Shown in pieces: positions 18,021 through 21,797 of a stretch of 64,000 nucleotides of DNA. The translations under genes were made by a program, and so were the position numbers. The DNA is from Axinella damicornis (lineage: Eukaryota > Porifera > Demospongiae > Axinellida > Axinellidae). The notes beneath the pieces were generated by a model. The model ran no database searches. It saw only the letters and a program-made list of their open reading frames with translations, and was not told the origin of the DNA. Positions within the stretch are counted from its first letter, which is position 1. Each line of letters opens with the position of its first letter. The stretch spans positions 9,674,508 to 9,738,507 of the forward strand of contig OZ007514.1 in assembly GCA_963931865.1 (NCBI GenBank), written 5' to 3'.

Positions 18021-18113
18021 CAACAAGACACAGGACTAACTTACATTGAGAAGAATGCATGGCGATGATCACTTGGAAACATCCGCTTCATTGGAGAGCT
18101 CTTTAAACTTAAG
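18021..18113 (+). CDS. EIF4G: eIF4G-like MIF4G exon with in-frame TGA
   Basis: The acceptor TTACCTGTAG precedes 18021 and the donor is GTATTT. The last 15 codons, SLGNIRFIGELFKLK, are the highly conserved MIF4G helix. The codon before them, expected Arg as in RRRSLGN, is TGA at 18066-18068; a single A-to-T change from AGA would give it. Confidence 0.8.
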
Positions 18114-18239
18114 GTATTTCTGTGATGCTACCTCTGCAGAAAACAACTAATACCGTTGTGAAGAAAATTATTTTGTACGATTTCTGTGGTGTTTGATCAG
18201 TTGTACATGGGTTGTGACTACATGCTTTTCCTGTGCCAG

Positions 18240-18370
18240 ATGTTGTCAGAAACGATAATGCACGAGTGTGTTGTTGGACTGCTGCGATCTCCTGTTGATG
18301 AGGAGTCTCTCGAGTGCTTTGCAAATTGATCACCACAACTGGCAAGGTCCTGGACCACCCCCAAGCAAAG
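18240..18370 (+). CDS. EIF4G: eIF4G-like MIF4G exon with one-base deletion
   Basis: After the acceptor CTGTGCCAG the exon reads MLSETIMHECVVGLLR, then DEESLECF. The frame is then lost within the T run at about 18327-18330 and continues as KLITTTGKVLDHPQAK to the donor GTGGGG at 18371. Restoring one T makes the exon 132 nt. The intron begins immediately with a 33-base G run (18386-18418). Confidence 0.8.
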
Positions 18371-18383
18371 GTGGGGAGGAGGA

Positions 18384-18385
<2 letters not shown>

Positions 18386-18418
<33 letters not shown>
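18386..18418. repeat. 33-base G run in the eIF4G intron
   Basis: Begins 16 bases after the donor GTGGGG, on the coding strand, so the intron RNA would start with a quadruplex-capable run. Confidence 0.95.
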
Positions 18419-19368: not shown

Positions 19369-19642
19369 GTCCAGTTCTGGTGGGCAGAAGCAATCCGACA
19401 GGGAGAGAGAGCGGGAGAAAAGCATTGGTACCCGCGGGACCACCTCGGCCCCTGAACACACCCACTCCCAGCCAGGATCACATCTGACTGGAATACCCCG
19501 TCAGAAACCATTTATGCCCGTCCACCCGGTTGTAGATGCTGTTGTGCCCTTACAGCCAGTTGCTGATGCTCTGGATGAGGACACGATTTGCAGGAAGACT
19601 GGGACAATCATTGATGAACTAGCACAGAACAAAGACTTCAAG
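19369..19642 (+). CDS. EIF4G: eIF4G-like linker and MA3 start exon
   Basis: The acceptor TTACACAG precedes 19369 and the donor GTAAGA follows 19642, leaving phase 0. The exon opens with a Ser/Gly and Arg/Glu-rich linker (KQSDREREREKS), then a His/Pro/Val-rich segment. It ends in LDEDTICRKTGTIIDEL and NKDFK, which align with the first helices of the MA3 domain. No lesion is present. Confidence 0.85.
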
Positions 19643-19924
19643 GTAAGAATCAGCCCTGTAGCCTGGATAGCAGGCCGATACACTTGTCACTGCATACTTG
19701 TATTTCCTGTTTATCAGGTAAATGAAATTTTGAAGAAAATGTCTAGATTAATTTTTGTAACCTTGTCTTGCCGATCAGAAGTGCCTCATAAACTATGGGA
19801 ATAGCACTCCCAGCTGGTGTAGCATCGTTGTGGAATTTTAGCCGATAATCCAATAGCTCAAATTGGGCAACAAATATCTGCAGATACCGATCTAAACTTT
19901 GTTGCCAACACCCATTCTGTAATA

Positions 19925-20651: not shown

Positions 20652-20720
20652 GTGGCAATAGAGTGTGTGAGGGAGATGAAGTCTCTGGGAACGATGAACG
20701 TGTTGGTACAGGACAGAGGG
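20652..20720 (+). CDS. EIF4G: eIF4G-like MA3 exon ending in a transposon-borne donor
   Basis: Reads VAIECVREMKSLGTMNVLVQ and then DRG, with the donor GTAGGA at 20721. The last six bases of the exon (20715-20720) and the donor itself belong to the terminal inverted repeat of a transposon that starts at 20714. Without the element, the flanking sequence closes up to give a gap-free alignment with MA3 of other animals. Confidence 0.8.
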
Positions 20721-21072
20721 GTAGGAGCAGGGGGGGCAAGGGGTGCAAGTGCACCCCCACTTTTTCCCTGGGGGTGCATTGCACCCCCACTTTTCCTGGA
20801 GAAAAATTATCTATTTAGTAAAGTAATTTTGACAACTCACCAAGCACATGGTCAAATGATAGTGTTTGAAATTTAGATGTTTGTAAAACAACAGTTGTTA
20901 GGTCTCAAAATCGCCCCAGAACCGCTCTCAGAGCACCAAATTTTGCAAAATTTTCTGGGGGGGGCATGCCCCCAGACCCCCCTAGCAGGGCACATTCCTA
21001 CGGAATGTGCACAGACGCTTCACCTCCGGGATTCTTTGCCCCCCCACTTTTTACTACCTTCCTACCCCTCTG
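20714..21072. mobile_element. hAT-like element inserted in the eIF4G coding sequence, forming an intron
   Basis: The element is 359 bp, with 13-bp terminal inverted repeats CAGAGGGGTAGGA and a 5-bp target duplication CAGGA at 20709-20713 and 21073-21077. The interior is non-coding and rich in G and C runs with short internal inverted repeats. The left end provides a GT donor at 20721. The right end plus the target duplication provides a polypyrimidine-CAG acceptor at 21074-21075. hAT assignment rests on the CAG-type ends and is tentative; most hAT families make 8-bp duplications. Confidence 0.8.
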
Positions 21073-21075
21073 CAG

Positions 21076-21188
21076 GAGTCTGTGAACCACACACTTGAGA
21101 AGTCGACACTGGCCAGGGTGTGCATGGGAGAGCTGTTCAATGGACTGGCCAAGTAGCAGCTGCTGACAGAGATGAAATTCACTGCTGG
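21076..21188 (+). CDS. EIF4G: eIF4G-like MA3 exon with in-frame TAG
   Basis: Acceptor CTCTGCAG, donor GTAAGT at 21189. The peptide ESVNHTLEKSTLARVCMGEL continues to GLAK, then TAG at 21154-21156, then QLLTEMKFTAG. Glu is expected at the stop, and the neighbouring duplicate of this exon part has GAG there. The alternative, a natural truncation of MA3, is unlikely because coding continues in frame downstream. Confidence 0.8.
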
Positions 21189-21207: not shown

Positions 21208-21276
21208 GTGCATGGCACAGCTGTTCCATGAGCTATCCAAGGAGCGGCTGCTCATGAAGGAGAAATGCATTGCTGG
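21208..21276 (+). repeat. Partial tandem duplicate of the eIF4G MA3 exon
   Basis: This 69-bp segment repeats the 3' part of the preceding exon, starting at CMGELF. It reads CMAQLFHELSKERLLMKEKC then IAG and ends at a matching splice position with its own donor GTGAGG. It has GAG where the first copy has TAG. It lacks the upstream half and a clear acceptor, so it probably cannot replace the first copy as a whole exon. Confidence 0.7.
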
Positions 21277-21514
21277 GTGAGGGGTGGGTATCTTGGTGTC
21301 TGGAAGTAAATGCCTGTCTAAGTAGAGTTGTTTGGCGTGATCCCATCAATCCCGTGACTGAGTTACGCAAGGCTCTTTGAGCACCTCATGCTTGAAGCAA
21401 CACATCTGATCTAGGTAGCTGCATGATCCACATGTGTTCACACAGTGACACACACAGAGTGCATGTAATGGCTACGTATGTGATGCCGACTTCCTCTGCT
21501 TCCTCTCCCTGCAG

Positions 21515-21797
21515 GCTGAATGAGGTTCTAGAATATGTGTGAGGACATAGAAGTAGACATATCCCTAGAATATGGGACTACCTGGGGGAGATCCTCTCTC
21601 AGCCGCCCCTGCCCCTCTGCACCCTTGTGAAGGTGGGGAGAGCAGCAGATCTGGTGGCCAAGACCCTCCTACAGGGTTTGGTGTGGCAGTCAGAGGCGGC
21701 TGCCCTGTCTCTGTGGCCCCAGTCGCAGCTGGATTCAGTGGATTGGACCTCCCTAGGAGTCAAGTCGGAAGATGTTGAGGAGTTTGTTAGTAAGCAG
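21515..21797 (+). CDS. EIF4G: eIF4G-like MA3 C-terminal exon with two frame changes
   Basis: The acceptor CTCCCTGCAG completes a Gly codon; the exon reads LNEVLEYV, shifts by one base at 21540, reads EDIEVDI, and shifts again by two bases at 21562-21563 to PRIWDYLGEIL. The net change is three bases, so the rest (KVGRAADLVAKTLLQGL, ending DVEEFVSKQ) is open to the donor GTGAGT at 21798. A weakly supported next exon may begin at 21999. Confidence 0.8.

Follow-up and report, generated by a model that had tools for sequence, protein, structure and literature searches.

The window, by which we mean the whole stretch of 64,000 nucleotides analyzed from the sponge Axinella damicornis (contig OZ007514.1, positions 9,674,508 to 9,738,507), contains an eIF4G-like copy whose MA3 exon is split by a 359-bp element lying between two copies of the pentanucleotide CAGGA (Table 1). 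To identify the host sequence we relied on a homologous copy, L030, the protein of which had its best match in eIF4G (1ug3, E value of 3e-34, versus 1.1e-5 for eIF4G2 and 1.5e-5 for PDCD4) and matched MA3 in Pfam. Excision of the element together with one CAGGA gives the joined sequence VLVQESVNHTLE, and the L030 protein over the same stretch, VFVRESVNHTLE, aligns without gaps to human eIF4G (1ug3). The joined window frame matched the Pfam MA3 profile weakly (58 residues, E value of 0.0071, 16.7 bits for a cutoff of 23.2). The structure given in the preliminary description of this DNA, namely, a 359-bp element with exactly complementary 13-bp ends, a 5-bp CAGGA duplication, the interruption of eIF4G MA3 coding sequence, and a gapless alignment after excision, was borne out, the last point through the L030 protein.

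Table 1 Features of the eIF4G-like copy and of the element within it (window coordinates; a slash marks a predicted splice site)
Feature	Position	Strand	Basis or remark
Two MIF4G exon remnants	18035..18397	+	Alignment with L033: 10-bp length difference at ~18053, 1-bp frameshift within 18315-18331
Upstream MA3 exon LQPVADALDEDTICRKTGTIIDELAQNKDFKV	19550..19645	+	Homology to eIF4G copies
Former MA3 exon, left part VAIECVREMKSLGTMNVLVQ	20652..20713	+	Exon query with 84% protein identity to the L030/L033 exons; Pfam MA3 match of the L030 protein
Target site duplication CAGGA, left copy	20709..20713	.	Single CAGGA at the empty site of L033 and L082
Non-autonomous hAT5-type element (MITE), 359 bp, best reading	20714..21072	+	Perfect 13-bp terminal inverted repeats; family of 53 genomic right ends
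Left terminal inverted repeat CAGAGGGGTAGGA	20714..20726	+	Exact match; holds potential donor GGG/GTAGGA, GT at 20721-20722
Right terminal inverted repeat	21060..21072	-	Exact complement of the left end; + strand pyrimidine-rich
Target site duplication CAGGA, right copy	21073..21077	.	Potential AG acceptor at 21074-21075
Former MA3 exon, right part ESVNHTLEKSTLARVCMGELFNGLAK*...	21078..21188	+	Sequence and comparison with paralogous copies
In-frame TAG stop	21154..21156	+	Aligned codon GAA in L030; GAG in L033, L082, and L084; CAG in L083
Next exon (last part of MA3 plus first part of the domain after it)	21516..21797	+	Contains TGA at 21540-21542
GACATATCCC, 2-bp insertion versus L030 and L084	21556..21565	+	Common to the window copy, L033, and L082

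Six copies of the MA3 exon were found in the genome, all of them on C10, and only that of the window is split; because the other five are uninterrupted, the insert represents a gain in the window copy. In L033 and L082 the empty site reads GTACAGGAGTC, with CAGGA present once. An ancient intron at this position, containing the transposon or replaced by it, is extremely improbable, given that the five paralogs are intronless there and that coding sequence directly adjoins the element at either end, where the target duplication is found. The window element differs by 1.7% from the majority sequence of its family, and the flanks of the host match those of L082 at 90.2% of 508 aligned columns (25 mismatches, the remainder being gaps), values that are consistent with an insertion later than the duplication of the host. 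After the MA3 exon, positions 21208 to 21289 repeat the second half of the exon, and L030 and L033 also match there.

Decay of the host copy

The eIF4G copy of the window is a decayed partial duplicate, a pseudogene. The right part of the MA3 exon carries a TAG about 11 codons upstream of the exon's own donor, and a TGA follows in the next exon; the preliminary description overlooked both, the first of which falls in its spliced frame. These two stops are private to the window copy among the eIF4G copies compared, so they do not date the decay. The 2-bp insertion in the next exon is, as indicated in Table 1, common to three copies, and both L033 and L082 have a TAA in that same exon. Upstream, no match to the MIF4G profile was obtained within the window, and the MIF4G exon located at 4742-4936 of L033 had no window counterpart among the blastn blocks. 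The stops of the window could be assembly errors, against which stand several independent defects, one of them found in three copies. Several full or partial eIF4G-like copies, at least three of them broken, are located on this one chromosome, at C10:1.10-1.26 Mb and C10:8.37-9.70 Mb.

Since the 2-bp frameshift is shared with L033 and L082, which are free of the element, the alignments suggest that the common ancestor of the three copies was already frame-shifted and that decay preceded the insertion. The shared 2 bp could instead have spread by gene conversion. We also considered a live eIF4G paralog that the element hit and, through inefficient or absent splicing, itself inactivated, the other defects being acquired later. 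The private TAG and TGA may indeed postdate the insertion, which would suit such a sequence of events, but a frameshift common to element-free copies, with a stop in their next exon, speaks against it. We infer, as the shared frameshift suggests, that the sub-family broke before the insertion, and we regard an insertion into a live paralog as unlikely.

The element family and its probable mobilizer

The genome searched comprised 226 Mb in 120 contigs. One intact protein encoded in it had at least 120 relatives, most of them without a name; among the matches listed, the three named ones with the highest scores were two Em0017g entries of the sponge Ephydatia and one of Suberites domuncula, and lower-scoring ones included Geodia barretti and Corticium as well as insects, a lancelet, and a bacterium, a pattern in line with a sponge host. 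A whole-genome search for the family, in which the best 40 of 184 candidates were scored, provided at least 53 matching pieces. The exact 17-base left end occurred 30 times and the 26-base right end, with up to three mismatches, 53 times, while the reversed controls of both patterns gave no occurrence. A 14-base right-end pattern (54 matches) was dropped in favor of the 26-base one because its reversed control matched nine times. Exact 5-bp target duplications flanked 39 of the 43 copies in which both ends could be paired; among the remaining four, L035 had one mismatch, L073 and L078 were read as having 6-bp duplications, and L076 had none. Eight additional right ends included six with no paired left end, one doubtful pairing (L091), and one with a variant left end (L092), while L079 consisted of a left end only and L081 was another doubtful pairing. 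The recurrence of the same pair of ends with a 5-bp duplication at dozens of loci indicates that the element in the MA3 exon is not a chance arrangement.

Across the 39 short copies that were aligned, divergence from the majority sequence ranged from 0 to 12.1%. Thirteen of the 14 copies of 290 to 302 bp were at 0.3 to 1.4% (the other, L075, at 12.1%), and part of the family therefore looks young. Two right ends, L080 (C11:9834802) and L088 (C11:9802200), have nearly identical flanks, which suggests that the element was copied as part of a larger duplicated segment.

Three long elements of 2,752 to 2,753 bp (L071, L072, and L073) share the CAGAGGGGTAGGA ends with the window element, and exact 5-bp duplications flank the two of 2,753 bp (L071 and L072). 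A single open frame of 769 amino acids is present in L072, and two shorter frames are present in L071. The L072 product matched DUF4371 and the hAT dimerisation domain in Pfam (PF14291 and PF05699), and its named relatives include proteins annotated as "zinc finger MYM-type protein 1-like" from lancelets, Corticium, and Dysidea. A relative (P0002, 61% identical) had only a weak match to the Hermes transposase (E value of 0.038). With the transposase frame of L072 still open, the family may still be mobile.

Families of hAT elements with 5-bp duplications form the hAT5 group, according to the text available from PMC12730594. The 2,753-bp element fits this group, and the likeness to hAT5 elements and their MITEs lies in the hAT transposase domains of the long partner, the short inverted ends, and the 5-bp target duplications; the placement follows from domains, ends, and duplication length. 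The best assignment for the window element is thus to the non-autonomous elements of hAT5 type, and it was probably mobilized by the enzyme of its 2,753-bp partner, to judge from the shared ends and the length of the duplication.

Overall, we consider that a hAT5-type MITE inserted in the MA3 exon of a duplicated, probably already decaying eIF4G copy and was tolerated there (probability of about 0.9). The duplications and the transposase domains of the partner point to a cut-and-paste reaction in which a transposase, probably the one encoded by its 2,753-bp relative, would have made staggered cuts that left the 5-bp CAGGA duplication. The insertion would have persisted because the host copy had no function to lose.

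Predicted splicing and other exonic insertions

The preliminary description went further and took the element for an apparent introner, a DNA transposon whose insertion gave rise to an intron, its left end providing the donor and the duplicated target the acceptor. For such an intron to be a working spliceosomal one, the eIF4G copy would have remained functional. Computation reproduced the geometry of that splice, from GGG/GTAGGA to CTCTGCAG/GA, which keeps the frame and adds only three residues (DRG). At the window copy, the predicted spliced frame then meets the TAG at 21154-21156. The right end of the element is pyrimidine-rich and has no AG ahead of the target duplication, a point in favor of the introner reading. 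In the predicted RNA fold the two ends of the element pair, leaving the donor inside the stem; this pairing could bring the splice sites together or hinder the donor. On generic weights, the element donor (1.09) scored above the native donor aligned with it in L030, which reached -0.55, but below the exon's own donor (4.68) and another GT of the exon, at 21118 (1.92), on a scale that discriminates poorly because a native donor scores so low on it. Of the 39 target duplications, 5 contained an AG when read on one strand and 14 when read on the opposite strand; given that this total of 19 of 78 is close to the rate expected for random 5-mers, estimated at one in four, we rejected the idea that the family favors AG at its targets. 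Splicing at the ends of the element would be possible on sequence grounds, and nothing in a host copy with stops and frameshifts requires it.

The preliminary description had proposed a genome-wide search for the element inside exons. We surveyed 115 frames of at least 30 residues running through the joined flanks at 40 of the 43 loci, and 82 of these frames were run against Pfam; as recognition relied on Pfam and on paralogs, coding exons lacking a known domain would be missed. Two exonic insertions were recognizable among the 43 copies with joined flanks (several right ends being unpaired), both of them in broken copies, and no intact coding exon with an insertion was recognized by Pfam or paralogs among the copies examined. 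Only one of the 82 scanned frames was above the cutoff, that of L064 (AMP-binding_C, 4-coumarate-CoA-ligase-like). A match of one frame to Keratin_matx (E value of 0.0044) was taken as low complexity. An extra Pfam scan of the frames of L074, L080, L076, and L091 gave a sole match, to Sushi in L091 (E value of 0.0078), which was under the cutoff and came from a doubtful element pairing. The 157-bp copy L074 (C2:4232484) lies just upstream, by eye, of a receptor tyrosine kinase-like exon with no Pfam match; we discarded it as an exonic insertion and read it as intronic, the element being located, also by eye, upstream of the apparent exon acceptor.

The second exonic case, L064 (C9:2711191-2712886), is a young family copy in a broken 4-coumarate-CoA-ligase-like duplicate, close to four intact copies with open frames of 588 to 617 residues. 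Its host lacks the equivalent of residues 302 to 471 of the intact paralog and changes frame at about residues 276 and 486. A predicted splice from the element donor to the first downstream AG would be in frame and of equal length. Both exonic cases thus have a predicted in-frame splice, for an expectation of 32.5% per case (554 of 1,704 positions in the ORF of the L064 paralog), or about one chance in nine for the pair. We counted this against the reading of insertions into dead copies, and it is not significant at two cases.

Part of the introner reading stood, namely, the gain by insertion, the empty paralogs, and the in-frame GT/AG pair; what did not stand is an intron in eIF4G, the host being a broken partial duplicate. 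That the host is broken elsewhere means that the window copy provides no evidence of the element having made a working intron. The in-frame geometry with three added residues, the pyrimidine-rich right end, the pairing of the ends, a donor scoring above the native one of L030, and the resemblance to known introners (PMC9860276, main text) all speak for such an intron, whereas the broken host, the donors of higher score in the same exon, the burial of the donor in the predicted stem, the chance-level AG in the duplications, and the failure to recognize any insertion in an intact coding exon among the copies examined speak against it. We consider it very unlikely that this insertion made a working intron in a functional eIF4G copy.

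Comparison with introners

The main text of PMC9860276 describes introner families with inverted repeats, target duplications, and splice sites coming from the element or from the duplication, one of which adds four residues. The window element resembles them in being a DNA transposon with inverted repeats and a target duplication in coding sequence, with potential splice sites from both element and duplication and a gain of whole codons. Here, in contrast, the host is a pseudogene, the splice is predicted, the duplications show no preference for AG, and among the copies examined no set of introns in working genes was recognized. What defines an introner is splicing in a functional gene; the site was empty in five paralogs within the genome, and interruption of a functional host gene was found neither at the window copy nor at L064. 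Among animals and land plants, introners are reported from only two groups, both of them animals (PMC9860276, main text), and the words "sponge" and "Porifera" do not occur in that main text. Among the matches listed from the open-licence literature there was no paper on sponge introners; the first of these matches, PMC6142364, mentions introner once, alongside sponge terms.

Transposon insertion has been reviewed as a route to introns, and a duplicate or pseudogene may be where an intron is acquired initially (PMC3443670, in the text available). The family might be an incipient introner, with ends that hold a usable GT donor and a pyrimidine tract in both orientations, so that splicing could join any exonic insertion to the first AG beyond it, and with new introns surviving first in broken copies; the in-frame prediction for both exonic cases would fit this idea. 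Because introns may start in duplicates or pseudogenes, we retain this idea, at a low probability.

The preferred reading remains that of a MITE tolerated in a decaying duplicate, and it calls for the integrity of the host gene to be checked before an introner is called. A study of maize Dissociation reportedly combined a hAT-superfamily element in an exon with transcript evidence; the sponge case is alike in the type of element and its exonic position, whereas here the host is broken and the splice is only predicted. The case shows that chance alone can place a neat, splice-compatible insertion in dead sequence. Splicing of the element, if it occurred, would make this the young, datable birth of an intron in an early-branching animal.
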